From assembly GCA_014879565.1 (NCBI GenBank), contig JACSRW010000030.1, positions 62,001-126,000 on the forward strand: a stretch of 64,000 bases of DNA, in the 5' to 3' direction. Below are positions 7,596-20,798 of this stretch, one piece after another (positions within the stretch are counted from its first letter, which is position 1; each line of letters begins with the position of its first letter). The position numbers and the translations under genes are program-made. Below the pieces are notes generated by a model. That model searched no databases, had not been told where the DNA came from, and saw only the letters and a list, made by a program, of their open reading frames with translations. The DNA comes from Chitinophagaceae bacterium. GTDB lineage: Bacteria > Bacteroidota > Bacteroidia > Chitinophagales > Chitinophagaceae.

Positions 7596-8426
7596 TTACA
7601 TTTTCCCTTCCAGGAAGCCCAGATGTTTCAGGATATCTTTCAGCATCTGCTTCCGGATATTGATCATCGGGGCATTGCGGTCGGCTGTTTCCAGGTTCAG
7701 TACAAAGAAAAAAGGGTGATTATTTTCTTCAATCCAGCCCACGATCCAGCCCAGCATATTCCCGTTTTCGCGGTAACCGAGGCCGGTTTTATACCCAAGC
7801 CGGTAATTGGTATTGCTTTCGAAAAGCATGGCTCTTTTCACCGTTTCCTGGTAGGACTTAAAAAAGGGCAGCTGATCGAAATAAAGTCTCTTTACCAGGC
7901 CCAGTTGCTGATCGGGCGTTATTTTGAGGGAATTATCAATCCAGAAACTGTCAATGGCCGTACGGATAACGACCTGATCCGTATCACTGCGGGCGCCGTA
8001 TTTCAGGCTGTCGAGCCAGAACTGCATGGTGTCTTTTCCGATCCGGCGGGCTACTTCCTGGTAATAAGGCAGGGAGGAGACCCGGAAGGCTTCATACATA
8101 TTCAGGTCTTTATTCCAGTCGGGCATCCAGCGTTCCACTCCGTCCCACTGAATCACCATACTGTCGCTGCTGATTTTACCCGTTTGCAGCCCGATCAGGG
8201 AATTGACAATCTTAAAGGTGGAAGCCGGCAGATAACTGCTGTCGCGGTAACGGCCCAGGTTATAGACGGTGAATTTCCCGGAGGCGTTATCCATAATAGC
8301 AAAGCAACCCTCCATTTTATTATCGGTGAAAAACTTTCCGAGGCTGTTGTCCTCTTTCACATTATCGGGTGAACAGGCATTCAATAAAAAAAGGAAGGTG
8401 GCAATAACTGCTGTCAGTCGTTTCAT
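7596..8426 (-). CDS. Class D (OXA-like) beta-lactamase, lipoprotein
   Basis: Class D enzymes hydrolyse beta-lactams through an acyl-serine. I start at the ATG giving a 276-residue protein because it begins with a clean lipoprotein signal (FLFLLNAC, C18). The longer upstream frame lacks one. The active-site motif is S69-T-F-K72 in PASTFK, and the third motif is K213-T-G. Two conserved elements deviate: the SxV motif reads S-S-L (117-119) and YGN reads Y143-G-A145. The W-x-x-G-W stretch near residue 227 is kept. It is probably anchored facing the periplasm. Penicillin-binding or sensor relatives are possible, but the small soluble-domain size favours an enzyme. Confidence 0.85.
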   Translation of the reverse strand: MKRLTAVIATFLFLLNACSPDNVKEDNSLGKFFTDNKMEGCFAIMDNASGKFTVYNLGRYRDSSYLPASTFKIVNSLIGLQTGKISSDSMVIQWDGVERWMPDWNKDLNMYEAFRVSSLPYYQEVARRIGKDTMQFWLDSLKYGARSDTDQVVIRTAIDSFWIDNSLKITPDQQLGLVKRLYFDQLPFFKSYQETVKRAMLFESNTNYRLGYKTGLGYRENGNMLGWIVGWIEENNHPFFFVLNLETADRNAPMINIRKQMLKDILKHLGFLEGKM

Positions 8427-8490
8427 TGTCTGAAAAAATTTCAGCAAAGGTAAAGACCGGGGCTGCAGTTTTTCCGTACTGTTTAAAATA

Positions 8491-9009
8491 TTACTGCCGT
8501 AAGAGGCGGGCTGTCTGCTTTCCCGTAACCCGGTAACTATCCACAAACGGAATTTCTTCATCCCCCTTACCCGTGGTTGCAAGCGGTTTGGCTGCCAGGG
8601 AGAAAAAATCTATAACCAGTTCCTTGTTCTCCATCCGGTATGTATTCAGGATGGTGGAACCGGAAACGGTGAAGGCACCGGTGAGACAGTTGCCCACCCA
8701 GAACTGATCCAGCAGGATGCCGTTTTTCTCATCCACCACCCAATGTCCCTTTGAGCGGTCAACCGGTTTCAGGATATAGGGGCGGCTGTCTTCGCGGGGA
8801 GTACCGTATATCAGGTGCCAGGTCCAGGCAGCGCTGTCTGTTTTTTGGATCCGCAATTCCATGGGTACTTTTTGCAGCGCAGCCTGACCGGCTTTGTACC
8901 AGTGAAGCTCCCCCTTCCAGTTGCCGGTCCAGTCATCCGGAAAAACCGGAGATTGCGCAAACAGAACGGCACCTGTAAAAAGGAGCGGGAAACAGAGAAG
9001 GAATCGCAT
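8491..9009 (-). CDS. Secreted hypothetical protein
   Basis: I do not recognise this 172-residue protein. The ATG chosen gives a typical signal peptide ending in LFAQ at about residue 18; the longer frame adds 24 residues without signal character. The mature part is rich in tryptophan and short beta strands (DWTGNWKGELHWY, WTWHLIYG), suggesting a small lipocalin-like or single-domain beta barrel. It lies 64 bases upstream of the beta-lactamase on the same strand, and a strong hairpin separates it from the small lipoprotein gene. Confidence 0.7.
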   Translation of the reverse strand: MRFLLCFPLLFTGAVLFAQSPVFPDDWTGNWKGELHWYKAGQAALQKVPMELRIQKTDSAAWTWHLIYGTPREDSRPYILKPVDRSKGHWVVDEKNGILLDQFWVGNCLTGAFTVSGSTILNTYRMENKELVIDFFSLAAKPLATTGKGDEEIPFVDSYRVTGKQTARLLRQ

Positions 9010-10639: not shown

Positions 10640-11052
10640 ACGGCAAATTTTGGGCAAAGATAATTCAAGCTGATACTCCTTCAGGATTCTTTACTGTTTA
10701 CCAAAGCAAAAGCTGTTTTCCCTAAAATGAGGCGAGGGCCGTGTCTGACCAATTTCGGTACCTCTACAGGCTGAATTTTAAACCCCGGACTAAAGCACTG
10801 AAAGTCCTGCAAATTATAGGTGCCAGGTGTGGTAATAGCAGTGTCCGGAAGATCTTTTTTCCTCTACATCTTCTTTACAAAAGCCGCGGTTCTCAGTAAA
10901 ACCACCACTACATGACCCCTTTTTAGTATTGATTTTCATACGCCTAACGAAAATCATACCTGTACACGTGCTTCTGTTAACAGCATAACTGACTTTACTC
11001 ACCTGCTAAGGAGCAGTTAGCGGTCTACTTTTAACTAATCAAAACAAATTGC
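10640..11052. other. Divergent intergenic region without genes
   Basis: About 410 bases between the kbl start (minus) and the DUF47 start (plus). Apart from the kbl -7 match I see no conserved ORF, tRNA-like fold, strong hairpin or tandem repeat. It presumably carries both divergent promoters, and any control site for the phosphate locus would be expected here. Confidence 0.5.
10655..10662 (-). promoter_or_regulatory. kbl: Possible kbl promoter -7 box
   Basis: The minus strand reads TATCTTTG, an exact match to the Bacteroidetes -7 consensus TAnnTTTG, 16 bases before the chosen kbl ATG. No good TTG -33 element is seen at the expected spacing, so this is a weak call. Confidence 0.3.
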
Positions 11053-11700
11053 ATGTTCCGTTTTCAAAAATCGAATAAGTCTATAGAACTGATTGACAGC
11101 TTTTTTAATTGCGTTGACCAGAGTGTATTGCTTTTTAAAGAGGGAGTTAAGAACTATTTATATAAGAATGCAGAAAACTTTAATAATAACCTCCAGTCGC
11201 TTGCCAACCTGGAAACGGAATCGGATCTGATTCGCCGTAAAATAGAAAATACCCTTTACACGCAGTCGCTGATGCCCCAGTTGCGCGGTGACATTTTGCG
11301 TTTACTTGAGGAATTGGACAATCTGATTGACTTGTCCAAGAAAAATCTATTTCAATTTGACGTGGAAACACCCCTTATTCCCCAGGAACTGGTTCAGGAT
11401 TTTGTCAAACTGACCCAGATTTCTGTTTCGGCGGCTGAATCTGTCATACCGGCCGCTAAATCCTATTTCAATGAGCCGGCTTCGGTCAATGAGAAAATTC
11501 ACCGGGTTTATTTCTTTGAAAAGGAAACGGATGTCTTTGCGGATGTGCTGCGCCGGAAAATTTTCCGGGAAATGCCCGGGCTGAAGCTGAGTGAAAAATT
11601 TCACCTGCGCTATTTCACCCTTCATATAGAAAACATATCCGATACCGCTGAAAAAGTGGCAGATCTGCTGACTATAATGGCAATCAAAAGAATTGTATAA
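11053..11700 (+). CDS. DUF47 (PhoU-like) phosphate-transport accessory protein
   Basis: This 215-residue, mostly alpha-helical, cytoplasmic protein has the charged helical pattern of the DUF47/TIGR00153 family, relatives of PhoU. Such proteins are commonly encoded directly before PiT low-affinity phosphate permeases and are thought to modulate them. Here the stop codon is two bases before the start of a PiT gene, so translational coupling is very likely. The family match is by pattern (paired E-x-x-x-D helical repeats and the terminal HIENISDTAEKVADLL helix). It opens a plus-strand run of nine genes. Confidence 0.88.
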   Translation: MFRFQKSNKSIELIDSFFNCVDQSVLLFKEGVKNYLYKNAENFNNNLQSLANLETESDLIRRKIENTLYTQSLMPQLRGDILRLLEELDNLIDLSKKNLFQFDVETPLIPQELVQDFVKLTQISVSAAESVIPAAKSYFNEPASVNEKIHRVYFFEKETDVFADVLRRKIFREMPGLKLSEKFHLRYFTLHIENISDTAEKVADLLTIMAIKRIV

Positions 11701-11702
11701 CC

Positions 11703-13454
11703 ATGTTGTTCCTTCTCTTTATAACAAGCGGTTTGTTTCTTGGCTGGTCACTGGGAGCCAATGATGCCGCCAATGTTTTTGGAACAGCTGTCGGATCGCG
11801 CATGATCAAATTCCGCACGGCTGCCCTGGTAGCAGGAATCTTTGTAATTATTGGTTCCACCCTGCAAGGTGGCGGGGCAACAGCAACCTTATCCGAACTG
11901 GGGTCAATTGACGCTTTGGGCGGAGCCTTTACGGTAGCGTTGTGCTCGGGACTGGTGGTAACGGTCATGACCACTTACCGGTTGCCTGTTTCCACCAGTC
12001 AGGCGATTGTCGGAGCCATTATCGGCTGGTGTTTTTATACATCCAATCCTGTTGATTATGGCACGCTGGGAATTATTGCCTCCACCTGGGTGGTCAGCCC
12101 GGTACTGGGAGGAATTTTTTCCGCTTTATTATACCTGGGCTTACGCCGTTATATCCGCACCACCCGGACGCATGTTATTCTGCTCGACCGGAAAATCCGT
12201 TACAGCCTTCTCCTTGTGGGCGCTTTCGGCGCGTACAGTCTCGGCGCCAATAATATTGCCAATGTGATGGGGGTATTTGTTAATTCAGCTTCCTTTAACC
12301 TGAACATCGGGGGGTATAATCTGAATGATAATCAGGTTTTGTTTTTCCTCGGCGGACTGGCTATTGCCACAGGTATTTTCACCTATGGCCGAAAAGTAAT
12401 GCATACGGTTGGCCAGGGTATTCTGGAGGTAACCCCCGAAACGGCCATCGTGGTGGTTTTATCGCAGGCCCTTGTACTTTTCCTGTTTTCATCCGCTTCA
12501 TTCTCGCACCTTATTCAGCGTATCGGTTTACCGGGTATTCCGCTGGTTCCCGTGTCCAGCACCCAGGTGGTGATAGGCGCCCTGATCGGAATAGGCGCAG
12601 TTAAGGGAGTACAGGAAATACGGTTCCGTCAACTGGGTCATATTATGCTGGGCTGGCTGCTTACCCCTTTAATGGCCGGGCTGACCACGTTTATCAGTCT
12701 CTTCTTTATTAATAATGTATTCCGGATTGCCATCACACATAAAAACCTGCCGGAAGTGACCAGCGGACTGCCTGCAGGCAATACACATACTGAAATCAAT
12801 CTGCCAGTTAATACAGTTATTATTATAACGGGTTTATTAGCGCTGCTGGTTATAAGCGTGTCCGCCTATTGGGTTTATCGCCATTTCCGGATGAAAGCGG
12901 AACAGTCGGAAACCAGTAAGCGGTTGTTTGAACAGTTGCAATATGCCGAATTACAAAAATCACTTTCCGAAATTGAAATGAAAAATGTCAAATCGGAAAA
13001 CTATTCCCTGGTAAACAGACTCGAGGAAAAGAGAAGAGAACTGGTAACCTATGCGCTCAGCATCGCCGAACAGAGACAGTTCCTGGAAAACACTCTGGAA
13101 GAACTGGAAGCGGTCCGGCTGGAATCAGGAATTAATGAAAAAAATGTGCGGTTGCAGGAACTCATCAGGGGAATCAGGCAAAAAATGAATTTCTCCGGTG
13201 AAATTGAACGGATTTACCAGCAGGCAGAACAGGTCAATGATGATTTTCCGAGCCGCTTATCCACCCATTCGCCTCAATTATCCGCACAGGAAAAGAAACT
13301 TGCTTTATTACTCCGCATCGGGTTTTCCAGCAAGGAAATCGCACCACTCATGAACATTTCTCCCAAGAGTGTGGAGATCGCCCGTTACCGTTTACGAAAA
13401 AAGCTGGATCTCAAAAAAGAAACCAATTTAACAGACTTTATAAAAACAATCTGA
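11703..13454 (+). CDS. PiT-family phosphate permease fused to a coiled coil and LuxR-like HTH
   Basis: Residues 1 to about 405 form a PiT inorganic phosphate:cation symporter. The inverted-repeat signatures GANDAAN (18-24) and GANNIAN, and the paired PVSTSQ and PVSSTQ motifs, are intact. The last membrane helix is near residues 378-402. A long coiled coil follows to about 505. The C terminus (about 525-583) is a helix-turn-helix of the Bacteroidetes LuxR-like type: SSKEIAPLMNIS, then recognition helix SPKSVEIARYRLRKKL. Plain PiT proteins end after the last helix. The fusion suggests a transporter that also acts as, or senses for, a membrane-bound transcription factor. That role is inference. 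No frameshift or internal stop breaks the join. Confidence 0.9.
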   Translation: MLFLLFITSGLFLGWSLGANDAANVFGTAVGSRMIKFRTAALVAGIFVIIGSTLQGGGATATLSELGSIDALGGAFTVALCSGLVVTVMTTYRLPVSTSQAIVGAIIGWCFYTSNPVDYGTLGIIASTWVVSPVLGGIFSALLYLGLRRYIRTTRTHVILLDRKIRYSLLLVGAFGAYSLGANNIANVMGVFVNSASFNLNIGGYNLNDNQVLFFLGGLAIATGIFTYGRKVMHTVGQGILEVTPETAIVVVLSQALVLFLFSSASFSHLIQRIGLPGIPLVPVSSTQVVIGALIGIGAVKGVQEIRFRQLGHIMLGWLLTPLMAGLTTFISLFFINNVFRIAITHKNLPEVTSGLPAGNTHTEINLPVNTVIIITGLLALLVISVSAYWVYRHFRMKAEQSETSKRLFEQLQYAELQKSLSEIEMKNVKSENYSLVNRLEEKRRELVTYALSIAEQRQFLENTLEELEAVRLESGINEKNVRLQELIRGIRQKMNFSGEIERIYQQAEQVNDDFPSRLSTHSPQLSAQEKKLALLLRIGFSSKEIAPLMNISPKSVEIARYRLRKKLDLKKETNLTDFIKTI

Positions 13455-15761: not shown

Positions 15762-16403
15762 ATGAGTAAAGAAGAATTAAAAATCGGCGAACAGTCAAAA
15801 CCCCGTTTTGAATTTCGCTCTTTCGGTCAGGATTTTGATAAGGCGGCATTCCGGATGGCCAGGCTTTCTGCGCCGGTACCGGAAAAAGTATGGGAAAGAG
15901 TCAGTGAAGAAATTTACATCCTCTCACGTACCAACGATATCAACAATACAAAAATCCGGGATGGCAAAATGGATATCAAAACCTATGTACAGACAGTTGA
16001 CGGGCTTGAGCAATGGAATCCCCTGATGAAAGGTAGTTTTCCGCTTCCCGTTTCTGTATTGTTGCAGGAAGTCTTTCCCGCTTTCCAGGTAAGGGTACCG
16101 GAACTTACAAAGGAAACATACAGCTATGAAGAGTTTATGCAACTGATTGAAGCCCATCCCGACCTGCAGGCAGTACGGGTACGTAAACAGCGTTTCGGCT
16201 ATATGGTGAATAATACTATCTGCGAAACAGGGAATGTATGGGTGAATGGAGCCCGGATAGCCACGATTAACTCAGAGTCCACTGAAGTGGCTGATATTCT
16301 TAAAACCATCGGCGATGTGGGTCTGGAAGGGGTAGAGAATATAAACTATTTACAGGCCATCAAACGGGTGATTGGTATGATTAATAAACCACTGGCAAAT
16401 TAA
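15762..16403 (+). CDS. Divergent CYTH/triphosphate-tunnel-like protein
   Basis: This 213-residue soluble protein is not a clear family member, but its order of motifs resembles the CYTH tunnel fold. An early E-x-R-S-F strand is followed by SEEIYILS, then the basic strand KIRDGKMDIKTY. Later come a K-x-RF strand (VRKQRFGY) and the acidic strand INSESTE, which parallel the R-x-K, K-x-RY and E-x-E strands of triphosphate tunnel enzymes. A typical CYTH gene follows after 11 bases. I infer a divergent paralogue, possibly binding a phosphate polymer. The gene itself is certain; the fold is moderately supported. Confidence 0.8.
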   Translation: MSKEELKIGEQSKPRFEFRSFGQDFDKAAFRMARLSAPVPEKVWERVSEEIYILSRTNDINNTKIRDGKMDIKTYVQTVDGLEQWNPLMKGSFPLPVSVLLQEVFPAFQVRVPELTKETYSYEEFMQLIEAHPDLQAVRVRKQRFGYMVNNTICETGNVWVNGARIATINSESTEVADILKTIGDVGLEGVENINYLQAIKRVIGMINKPLAN

Positions 16404-19340: not shown

Positions 19341-20798
19341 ATGATCGAAGAAGTAATTAAAATACATGACCGTCATTCAGCTGAAATAAAAGTTGGCTTT
19401 GTAGCCCGCAAAAAAAAGAAGGATAACCTGTTTTCGTTCAATATCTGGATGTTTTTGCCCGGCAGCCTGGATATCAACCGGCATACATACAGCAAAGCTG
19501 ATTTTTACCGCGATACCAAATCCAATATCCGGCTGATTACGCCTGTGTATATATTACGTGATATTGCAGAAGGCGGAAACAGCTGTTTTACCTATCTGGA
19601 AAAATCATTTACGGCACTGGCTTCCTCCCCTACCCGTACCCACCGGACAGCATATGAGTACCAGATTAAAATGTTCCTCTCCATTCTGAAAAGTTCTCTT
19701 CGCGAGGAAGTGTCCCACATTTCCGCCGCAGCTGACAGCGACCTGGATTACCTGGTATACAATTTCATAATGTACACCAGCCGGATCGCCGAAAGATACC
19801 GGGCACTCTATAAAATAATTAATGTTCCCACCATAGACACGCCCATGATGGAAGTGTTCCGTTACGGGGATGAATTCATGAGTAATACCATTGAATTTCA
19901 TTGTTTCCGTCTGATCCGGAACCTGAAAAAAAGAAACCCGGAGCAGATCATGCAGCAACAAACCTCGCTTTCAGGACTGATTGAACAGGAAATCAGCTAC
20001 CGGCAGGAAAAAAATTACCCGGTAGCCTCCCTGCACAACCGGCGGAACAATAACGACCTTATTTACCGGCTGAGCACCCTGAAAAAATATGCGGAAAGTC
20101 ACCTGTTCCTTAACGTGGACAAGCGAAAGGACGGCATATTGATTGAACAATTACTTTACAGCCTGGCTGCTGGTATCTCTATGATTTTTGCAACGGTGGT
20201 CGCCTTTTCTGTTCAGCAGAAATTCGGCAACTTAACCATGCCGCTTTTTGTCGCCCTGGTAGTTAGTTATATGCTTAAAGACCGGATCAAGGATTTTGCC
20301 CGGTACTATTTTGCCCATAAACTGGGCTCCCGTTACTTTGATCACAAGATCAAAATGAAAATCCGGCATCAGCCTATTGGCTGGGAACGGGAGAGCATGG
20401 ATTTTATTTCCCCCAATAAAGTACCGCCCGAAATCAGCAAAACCCGCAACCGGACCTTATTCTTTAACTCAAACAGTGCAGTAAATACCGAAAAAGTACT
20501 GCTGTACAGAACCCGGATGTATATTAACCGCAAAAAACTGGACCAGTCAAACAGTTATACAATAGAAGGAGTAAATTCCATTATCCGCTTTAATGTACTG
20601 CAACTCATGCGGAATATGGATAATGCAGAATTTCCCCTCTATTGCCCCGATGAAAAAGAGGGCTACCAGGTGGTGTACGGAGATAAATTATACTATATCA
20701 ACCTCGTTATCCAAAAACAACACGACGAGCAACGCGCCCTGCAACGTTACAGGATCGGCATCAGCAGAAAAGGGATTCAGCACATTGAAAAATTTTAA
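19341..20798 (+). CDS. Unrecognised protein with a central two-helix membrane hairpin
   Basis: I do not recognise this 485-residue family. Residues of about 1-260 are soluble and mostly helical, with a beta-rich start and RTHR, ERYRALY and HCFRLIRNLKKR basic helices. Two hydrophobic segments follow at roughly 272-312, separated by a short loop (FSVQQKFGNLT). A basic region comes next, then a C-terminal beta-rich domain (about 390-485) ending YRIGISRKGIQHIEKF. There is no signal peptide, so both domains probably face the cytoplasm. It starts 18 bases after the SLC13 permease and closes the phosphate-linked run. Confidence 0.85.
   Translation: MIEEVIKIHDRHSAEIKVGFVARKKKKDNLFSFNIWMFLPGSLDINRHTYSKADFYRDTKSNIRLITPVYILRDIAEGGNSCFTYLEKSFTALASSPTRTHRTAYEYQIKMFLSILKSSLREEVSHISAAADSDLDYLVYNFIMYTSRIAERYRALYKIINVPTIDTPMMEVFRYGDEFMSNTIEFHCFRLIRNLKKRNPEQIMQQQTSLSGLIEQEISYRQEKNYPVASLHNRRNNNDLIYRLSTLKKYAESHLFLNVDKRKDGILIEQLLYSLAAGISMIFATVVAFSVQQKFGNLTMPLFVALVVSYMLKDRIKDFARYYFAHKLGSRYFDHKIKMKIRHQPIGWERESMDFISPNKVPPEISKTRNRTLFFNSNSAVNTEKVLLYRTRMYINRKKLDQSNSYTIEGVNSIIRFNVLQLMRNMDNAEFPLYCPDEKEGYQVVYGDKLYYINLVIQKQHDEQRALQRYRIGISRKGIQHIEKF

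Follow-up and report, generated by a model that had tools for sequence, protein, structure and literature searches.

A PiT-family transporter fused to a LuxR-type helix-turn-helix, a candidate regulator of its own operon in Bacteroidota

Can a transporter itself serve as the transcription factor of its own uptake genes? Transport-coupled signaling normally runs via partner proteins, such as kinases, PhoU, and co-sensors. The question is raised by a gene in a 64,000-nucleotide stretch of a Chitinophagaceae genome (GenBank assembly GCA_014879565.1, contig JACSRW010000030.1, positions 62,001 to 126,000; below, the window), in which a PiT-family transporter is followed, within one reading frame, by an added transmembrane helix, a long helix, and a LuxR-type helix-turn-helix (HTH). 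A first-pass annotation of the window had proposed a permease with its own DNA-binding domain that reports to the promoter without a kinase or a PhoU/PhoR relay. Having compared this gene with its relatives in the phylum, we consider it probable that the fusion is a transporter/transcription-factor hybrid that regulates its own operon according to the substrate state of the transporter, and this regulatory interpretation is well supported by comparative evidence from the sequences. A more specific claim, that a one-protein transceptor and transcription factor sets the transcription of its uptake operon by its own conformational or substrate state, through a phased array of sites, and that it has replaced a three-protein pathway, seems to us as apt to fail as to hold.

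A single open frame, conserved in twelve genomes

The open reading frame (ORF) at 11703-13454 encodes 583 aa with no stop between the PiT and tail parts, as the first-pass annotation had it; there is no frameshift, and 11 full-length homologues share the arrangement. Toward the N terminus, Pfam PHO4 matches residues 18-328 with 210.4 bits (gathering cut-off 33.7), and the nearest solved structure, TmPiT (6l85), is found both by sequence (E 1.4e-26) and as the top fold match of an AlphaFold2 (AF2) model (E 2.4e-12). At the other end, Pfam GerE matches residues 525-578 with 33.9 bits (cut-off 23.5), a cut-off also passed by five of six other fused proteins scanned. Hydropathy places a strong hydrophobic segment after the PiT core and a variable linker in all 12 fused proteins. 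The AF2 model, which is of moderate confidence, predicts a continuous helix from 369 to 472, further helices at 477-495 and 499-522, and then a four-helix HTH, whose fold matches the C-terminal domain of DosR (1zlj) with a TMt of 0.73 but an E of 0.26. The layout first described, PiT followed by coiled coil and HTH, stands as regards the GerE domain and the long helix, but it had missed the extra helix at about residues 369-390. The chain combines PHO4, the extra helix, and GerE; domain scans of the fused protein listed no kinase or receiver domain, and neither HisKA nor HATPase.

On which side of the membrane would such a tail lie? According to the available excerpt of PMC3126765, tag-based models of PiT1 and PiT2 place both ends outside, and an older model places both inside. 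Because the tag-based models put the ends outside and the fusion adds one helix, its HTH would be cytoplasmic; the stretch that follows the added helix is positively charged (YRHFRMK in the window protein), which points the same way.

The fused architecture occurs in 12 distinct genomes, from Chitinophagales, one further family, and Bacteroidales, and this recurrence rules out a frameshift or chimera. Identities of the 11 full-length homologues are 84, 71, 67, 57, 55, 54, 53, 50, and 47%, with the last two at about 43-44%. Genomes were sampled at several ranks, and since the samples overlap, their counts are not additive. The fusion is present in close relatives: the genus sample has it in 3 of 42 genomes (the window's own counted), and the order sample in the window's own and 2 others of 348. 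It is not typical of the family, being found in one of the 394 family genomes sampled, namely the window's own. A scan of GTDB contigs gave six fused loci out of seven. In the class sample (345 genomes) G1193 is fused and G1167 tail-less, and in the family of G665 (219 genomes) four of five matching genomes are fused (G665, G627, G1470, and G1381), G1439 being tail-less. The phylum sample (395 genomes) holds the PiT core without this tail in 12 genomes. Tail-less relatives with frames of 490-530 aa (including G964, with a match over 5-500) were considered as intermediates carrying the same tail, and their tails proved to be of another kind. A different C-terminal extension, of about 140 aa, is found on PiT in nine of 12 tail-less relatives (L056-L058, L060-L065), and the one extension of the other kind that was scanned, L046:3902-5395, has no Pfam match.

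A tree of 24 PiT cores puts 10 fused proteins on one side of a branch and 14 others on the opposite side (support 82/91, unstarred), and a tail tree of 42 rows separates 10 fused tails from 32 other membrane-regulator tails (95/79, unstarred and with a long-branch warning; loci L087 and L094 overlap, which counts two proteins twice, and L096 is cut short). Both cover the 10 fused proteins known at that point, L124 and L125 being absent. Because these two larger trees share their deepest fused branches (L072, then L048), a single fusion event is the simplest reading, and the fusion probably had a single origin. The Bacteroidales members are nested inside the Chitinophagales group, which suggests transfer.

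Is the tail under selection? Between the window and L039, the share of nonsynonymous sites that changed is 0.041 for the HTH and 0.073 for the PiT core, as against 0.104 and 0.129 for the two parts of the long-helix region and 0.415 for the linker. The ratios of nonsynonymous to synonymous divergence (dN/dS), 0.02 for the HTH and 0.60 for the linker, are rough because synonymous sites are near saturation. Judged from this sequence comparison, the HTH is under purifying selection, with constraint at least equal to that on the transporter core. A fusion both conserved and selected is in keeping with the first-pass proposal of a permease whose own DNA-binding domain likely acts on its own promoter, with neither a kinase nor a PhoU/PhoR relay in between. 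That the fusion is an artefact of assembly or sequencing, or an accidental read-through, might be suspected from the 44 contigs of the window's genome and from six other fused genomes being labeled metagenome assemblies; it is refuted by the 12 genomes, by the absence of a stop between the parts, and by the purifying selection that acts on the tail, and we give it practically no credence.

The tail is not a new module. Reg_prop, Y_Y_Y, and GerE domains occur together in a 961-aa protein of the window's genome, which over its last 200 residues shares 34% identity with the fusion tail. A similar tail is carried by a 597-aa TPR protein from elsewhere in the genus (GerE is not listed there at E 0.01). 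By these similarities, the fusion tail belongs with the output tails of membrane-bound regulators in Bacteroidota, and the transporter would have replaced the sensor part of a Reg_prop- or TPR-type regulator. Alternatively, the C-terminal tail could regulate the transporter itself, through oligomerization or gating, and not be a transcription factor at all; tails of the other kind do follow the PiT core in nine of 12 tail-less phylum-sample loci. However, the fused tail resembles one-component regulator output through both helix and HTH, its GerE match is above cut-off, and it tracks the heptamer array described below, which makes a tail of this function highly improbable.

A heptamer array that comes and goes with the tail

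If the HTH acts on its own promoter, a matching site should be found there. Upstream of the window operon lie four co-oriented heptamers, CTCTACA (10862), CTTTACA (10873), CACTACA (10906), and CTGTACA (10960), and the candidate operator they form, 10862-10966, falls inside the 10640-11052 region that the first-pass annotation had named for DNA binding. The first two make up a dyad whose exact pattern, CTNTACANNNNCTNTACA, stands at the operon in seven of 12 fused loci. In a four-species alignment of 10850-11020, invariant columns number 23 of 28 in the heptamers versus 33 of 134 elsewhere (p 1.7e-8). The spacings among the heptamers (11, 33, 43, and 53-56 bp) come near to whole turns of the helix. 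The Bacteroidota -7 promoter consensus is TAnnTTTG, and the proximal heptamer lies 65-66 bp upstream of a -7-like box in eight of the 12 fused loci and 82 bp upstream of one in the other four. An activator role would suit the array because it lies upstream of the promoter.

A co-oriented pair of heptamers 53-56 bp apart is present upstream of the operon in all 12 fused loci and in none of 11 tail-less loci tested. The test used a weight matrix from seven loci, with shuffled sequences as control. In its first form, at 54-56 bp (a spacing chosen after the pairs of L075 and L072 had been seen; 53-57 bp was allowed for the later L124-L126), the pair was found in 10/10 fused loci, where 0 or 1 of 200 shuffles were as good, and in 0/10 tail-less loci, where 46 to 199 of 200 shuffles were as good. 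Those tail-less loci were 10 of the 12 from the phylum sample, leaving out L061 (first gene uncalled) and L063 (contig end) and including L059, which has DUF47 and PiT and no more of the operon; L073 and L045 stayed outside the test, and the addition of L126 brought the number to 11. G1470 and G1381 were fetched after the motif had been fixed. They carry CTATACA-CTATACA (54 bp) and CTCTACA-CTATACA (53 bp), respectively; with spacings of 8 to 150 bp allowed, no other pair in either locus scored better, and 0 of 500 shuffles came up to it. The congener of G1381, G1439, keeps the operon genes and lacks the extra helix, the long helix, and the HTH; its upstream region has no heptamer of at least 6 bits, and 353 of 500 shuffles were as good. 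At the level of loci, one genus holds both L126:8890-10050, a PiT that ends soon after the core and has no array, and L125:7757-9649, a PiT-HTH fusion.

Could the array be the site of some other regulator, for example of the PhoB type, with the HTH acting elsewhere or not on DNA? A 7-bp direct repeat with an 11-bp period resembles the layout of the Escherichia coli Pho box. However, the array tracks the tail across the fused and tail-less loci, the congener G1439 included, and in four fused genomes the operon has the only exact dyad, which is not the pattern of a global Pho box. Further, the 53-56 bp pairing resembles what is predicted for SusR-like regulators in the available excerpt of PMC3878776. 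We regard control of the array by another regulator as improbable.

The genome-wide counts behind this comparison are as follows. The exact dyad CTNTACA-N4-CTNTACA occurs once per genome, at the operon, in G1339-G1342, and 2, 3, and 2 times in G000, G023, and G036, with one at the operon in each. G665 and G1193 have none, G627 has two, neither at the operon, and each of 20 comparison genomes has 0 or 1. Because matches elsewhere are at background level, only the operon dyads stand out. Among the extra dyads, that of G036 and one of G023's two lie inside called ORFs, G023's other overlaps the 3' end of an ORF, and the one of G000 falls shortly ahead of the first ATG of a called ORF, within its opening stretch, and may be intergenic. 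Of the two G627 dyads, the one examined, at L116:4667-4684, CTATACAAAAACTATACA, stands between a susC-like gene (identified by eye) and a membrane regulator of the same tail family, in opposite orientation; it is perhaps that regulator's site and perhaps a chance match. A global Pho box is not favored by the dyad counts per genome, no search for PhoB having been made.

What stands in place of the tail in the tail-less relatives? In 10 of the 12 tail-less phylum-sample loci, the operon is adjoined by a divergent unit that encodes a PhnD-like binding protein and a sensor histidine kinase, together with an NtrC-type sigma54 response regulator in nine of the 10 units (the units were assigned by sequence clustering, and only L064 and L055 were scanned with Pfam). 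The unit spans L064:2083-5961 and L062:13823-17570, and the eight other loci have it likewise. The binding protein is of the phosphonate/phosphite type, and the unit resembles the arsenite sensor AioX-AioS-AioR in gene content. Whole-genome searches, with the binding protein of one of these tail-less genomes as query, gave a strong match in 11 of the 12 tail-less phylum-sample genomes and no match in 10 of the 12 fused genomes; the remaining two, G1193 (4e-9) and G1381 (1.1e-11, one internal stop), have only weak, unlinked matches. The relay-free control of the promoter that was first proposed is supported by an array that comes and goes with the tail and by fused genomes that lack the binding protein of the sensor unit.

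The mechanism that we propose would run as follows. The PiT-family oxyanion transporter core would be the input domain, and the added transmembrane helix would return the C terminus to the cytoplasm. There, the long helix, probably a coiled coil, would hold the LuxR-type HTH, probably as a dimer; the HTH would bind the helically phased CTNTACA-like heptamers, which precede the presumed -7 box of the protein's own operon by about 65-190 bp, and would regulate the eight genes from DUF47 through SLC13, most likely as an activator. The signal would be the substrate state of the transporter, for phosphate or a similar oxyanion. The fusion may thereby stand in for the divergent unit of binding protein, histidine kinase, and sigma54 regulator found beside the operon in most tail-less relatives.

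Several observations weigh against this proposal. The contrast between fused and tail-less loci is essentially one evolutionary split plus one reversal, and the loci are therefore not independent; further, a small tail tree of 13 rows, three of them other tails, placed L072 (G1193) with these three and not with the rest of the fused tails. The GerE match of the G1381 fused protein, at 22.4 bits, is slightly below the cut-off, the AF2 model has a pLDDT of 60.5 and a pTM of 0.46 from eight sequences, and a cytoplasmic tail leans on PiT topology models that are themselves debated (PMC3126765, same excerpt). As regards the DNA, five fused loci out of 12 are without the exact 11-bp dyad, L039, L074, and L075 have the 54-56 bp pair in degenerate form, and the -7 boxes, most of which have a single mismatch, were chosen from as many as five possible boxes in a locus. 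A heptamer pair of similar score occurs at two other places in the window, one heptamer of at least 7.5 bits stands upstream of the internal DUF47 gene in three of nine tail-less loci, and over 30 genomes the dyad has 18 matches versus 13 for a reversed control, 11 being left without the seven operon matches. As regards the exchange of regulators, in G1193 another pair, His_kinase and a LytTR regulator, precedes the fused operon by about 4 kb, and the tail-less genomes G802, G1167, and G1439 are also without the binding protein, so that its absence does not imply fusion. To these must be added the altered transporter residues, to which we now turn.

The transporter core and its substrate

What does the transporter carry, if it carries anything? 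The first-pass annotation had described the PiT motifs as intact. This holds for the first signature, GANDAAN (D21), and for both PVSxxQ motifs, but not for the second signature, which reads SLGANNIAN, that is, GANNIAN, with L180 and N184 in place of H and D. The excerpt of PMC3126765 names E55, H502, and D506 of human PiT2 as critical for phosphate transport; via the 6l85 alignment they correspond to V48, L180, and N184 here, and PiT2 E575 maps to V252. All 12 fused proteins have V48, L180, N184, and V252, and all keep D21, S97, and S285; the replacement of these four positions throughout makes both substrate and transport competence uncertain. Among 15 tail-less relatives, N184 is found in 15, V252 in 14, L180 in 12, V48 in 10, and D21 in six. 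The same replacements being common without the tail, they are a mark of the subfamily and not a loss through fusion. In nine of the 15 tail-less PiT proteins the aspartate of the first signature is replaced by H or N.

With four phosphate-critical positions replaced, phosphate as the sensed signal, as first supposed, is not supported. Flux rather than occupancy as the state reported is likewise unsupported. The replacements make the substrate an oxyanion of uncertain identity; phosphate is favored by the DUF47 and Porin_O_P neighbors and is plausible but uncertain. Relative to TmPiT (6l85) and human PiT2, the fused protein has the same fold, the PHO4 domain, the first signature GANDxAN, and the serines of both PVS motifs, but it differs by H to L and D to N in the second signature, by the loss of two acidic residues, and by the extra helix and regulatory tail. 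Bacillus subtilis CysP has G and N at the two signature aspartates, according to the available part of PMC5840216, and shares with the fused protein the change of the C-terminal signature aspartate to asparagine; the fused protein differs in retaining the N-terminal aspartate and scores 80.4 bits with the NCBIfam CysP model NF053884, far under the cut-off of 400. By this score the protein falls outside the CysP model, and sulfate or another anion may still be the substrate.

These residues raise the alternative that the HTH does regulate the operon, with the PiT core as a degenerate, non-transporting receptor and uptake carried out by the SLC13 or a PitA-like transporter. The replacement of four PiT2-critical positions in every fused protein (PMC3126765, same excerpt) would fit, as would the SLC13 permease within the same operon and a PitA-like gene elsewhere in the window's genome, which has the canonical D, H, and E at positions 184, 180, and 252, a PHO4 match of 316 bits, and its own DUF47 neighbor. 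On the other hand, the replacements are common in the 15 tail-less relatives, the fused core is strongly conserved at its nonsynonymous sites, and D21, missing in nine of those 15, is kept in every fused protein. A receptor that no longer transports is, in our judgment, rather doubtful, and we retain the transporter/transcription-factor hybrid as the preferred reading.

Precedents and the operon

What is new in such a hybrid is a whole secondary transporter as the input of a membrane-bound one-component regulator, of which we know of no earlier example. In CadC/LysP and other co-sensors, a membrane-bound transcription factor is informed by a transporter; the two are separate proteins there and one in the fusion. 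No account of a PiT-HTH fusion was found among the titles and abstract openings listed from the open-licence literature, where PF01384 with PF00196 yields nothing, which is weak evidence. Transmembrane transcription regulators are widespread, some with up to 22 transmembrane regions, and the available part of the account in PMC10269533 does not describe a transporter as input domain. Like the Bacteroidota one-component regulators, the fusion has input part, membrane helix, long helix, and C-terminal HTH in one protein, but where they have a sensor domain it has an entire secondary transporter as input. For SusR-like membrane regulators the predicted binding sites are direct repeats on one helix face, at a distance of 67 or 77 bp (PMC3878776, excerpt). 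The likeness to them lies in a candidate direct-repeat operator with two sites on one face of the helix, many turns apart, and is one of layout; here the repeats are 53-56 bp (five turns) and not 67 or 77 bp (six or seven turns) apart, the target operon serves anion uptake and not glycans, and the input is a PiT transporter and not a periplasmic carbohydrate-sensing domain. CbrA and other SSS-type transporter-sensor-kinase fusions likewise have a secondary transporter and a signaling output in one chain (PMC7918813, excerpt), but there a histidine kinase passes the signal to a separate response regulator, whereas here the DNA-binding domain is on the transporter itself.

If the hybrid works as proposed, it would be the shortest possible route, the carrier itself being the transcription factor, and it would be a simple setting in which to find out if transporters report flux or occupancy. 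Direct tests are within reach, given the tail-less and array-less congener, the kinase-unit operons, and an operator readable from sequence, and other membrane proteins might be turned into reporters with the Bacteroidota tail.

The operon to be regulated consists of eight genes, all on the + strand and with short gaps: DUF47, PiT-HTH, Porin_O_P, LTD, the 213-aa protein, CYTH, SdiA-regulated/phytase-like, and SLC13 (Table 1). The DUF47 gene lies directly upstream of the fusion in all 12 fused loci. Ten of these have enough flanking sequence to compare (the window, L039-L044, L072, L075, and L125): the first six genes are present in all ten, SLC13 in nine (not L125), and SdiA-regulated in six (not L042-L044 or L075). 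The operon core is kept in 11 of the 12 tail-less relatives of the phylum sample, with SLC13, a called DUF47, and the porin each in 11; G802 (L059) has only DUF47 and PiT. Their usual order is 213-aa protein, CYTH, SLC13, DUF47, PiT, porin, LTD, SdiA-regulated.

Table 1. Features of the fusion gene, its operon, and the candidate control region, in window coordinates
Feature	Position	Strand	Evidence or remark
Candidate operator, distal dyad CTCTACA-N4-CTTTACA (two heptamers, 11 bp period)	10862..10879	+	exact pattern CTNTACANNNNCTNTACA
Candidate operator heptamer CACTACA, upstream member of 54-bp pair	10906..10912	+	pairs with 10960
Candidate operator heptamer CTGTACA, promoter-proximal	10960..10966	+	66 bp upstream of -7-like box
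Presumed Bacteroidota -7 box TACTTTTA	11026..11033	+	one mismatch to TAnnTTTG; 27 bp before DUF47 start
PhoU-like DUF47 protein, 215 aa, first operon gene	11053..11700	+	Pfam PhoU_div 79.9 bits
PiT - transmembrane helix - long helix - HTH fusion protein	11703..13454	+	583 aa
PiT transporter core, residues 1-340	11703..12722	+	PHO4 match; 6l85 by sequence and fold
Extra transmembrane helix, about residues 369-387	12807..12863	+	hydropathy peak; start of predicted helix 369-472
Long helix / presumed coiled coil, residues 394-520	12882..13262	+	AF2 helices; similarity to regulator tails
LuxR/GerE HTH, residues 525-578	13275..13436	+	Pfam GerE, DosR-like fold, low dN/dS
Phosphate-selective porin O/P family protein, 452 aa	13474..14832	+	Pfam Porin_O_P 153.9 bits
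Lamin-tail-domain (LTD) protein, 277 aa	14856..15689	+	Pfam LTD 50.6 bits; position conserved; lipoprotein-like start by eye
Conserved 213-aa protein	15762..16403	+	no Pfam match
CYTH (triphosphate-tunnel) protein, 156 aa	16415..16885	+	Pfam CYTH 56.6 bits
SdiA-regulated / phytase-like protein, 257 aa	16920..17693	+	Pfam SdiA-regulated 44.9, Phytase-like 37.3 bits
SLC13/DASS family anion permease, 537 aa	17709..19322	+	TIGR00785 dass 202.6 bits (cut-off 198.6); Pfam Na_sulph_symp 176.3 bits

The 213-aa protein (15762-16403) has no Pfam match even at E 10 and is 76-85% identical in the four fused relatives aligned; by eye it had been taken for a divergent CYTH protein, and profile comparison gave that relation a probability of 0.6%. 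Following SLC13, a 485-aa protein (window 19341-20798) without a Pfam match has a 50% identical neighbor in L075 and is possibly a further operon member. Away from the operon, the window encodes at 7596-8582 a penicillin-binding transpeptidase domain (106.7 bits) with an STFK motif, by eye a relative of class D beta-lactamases.

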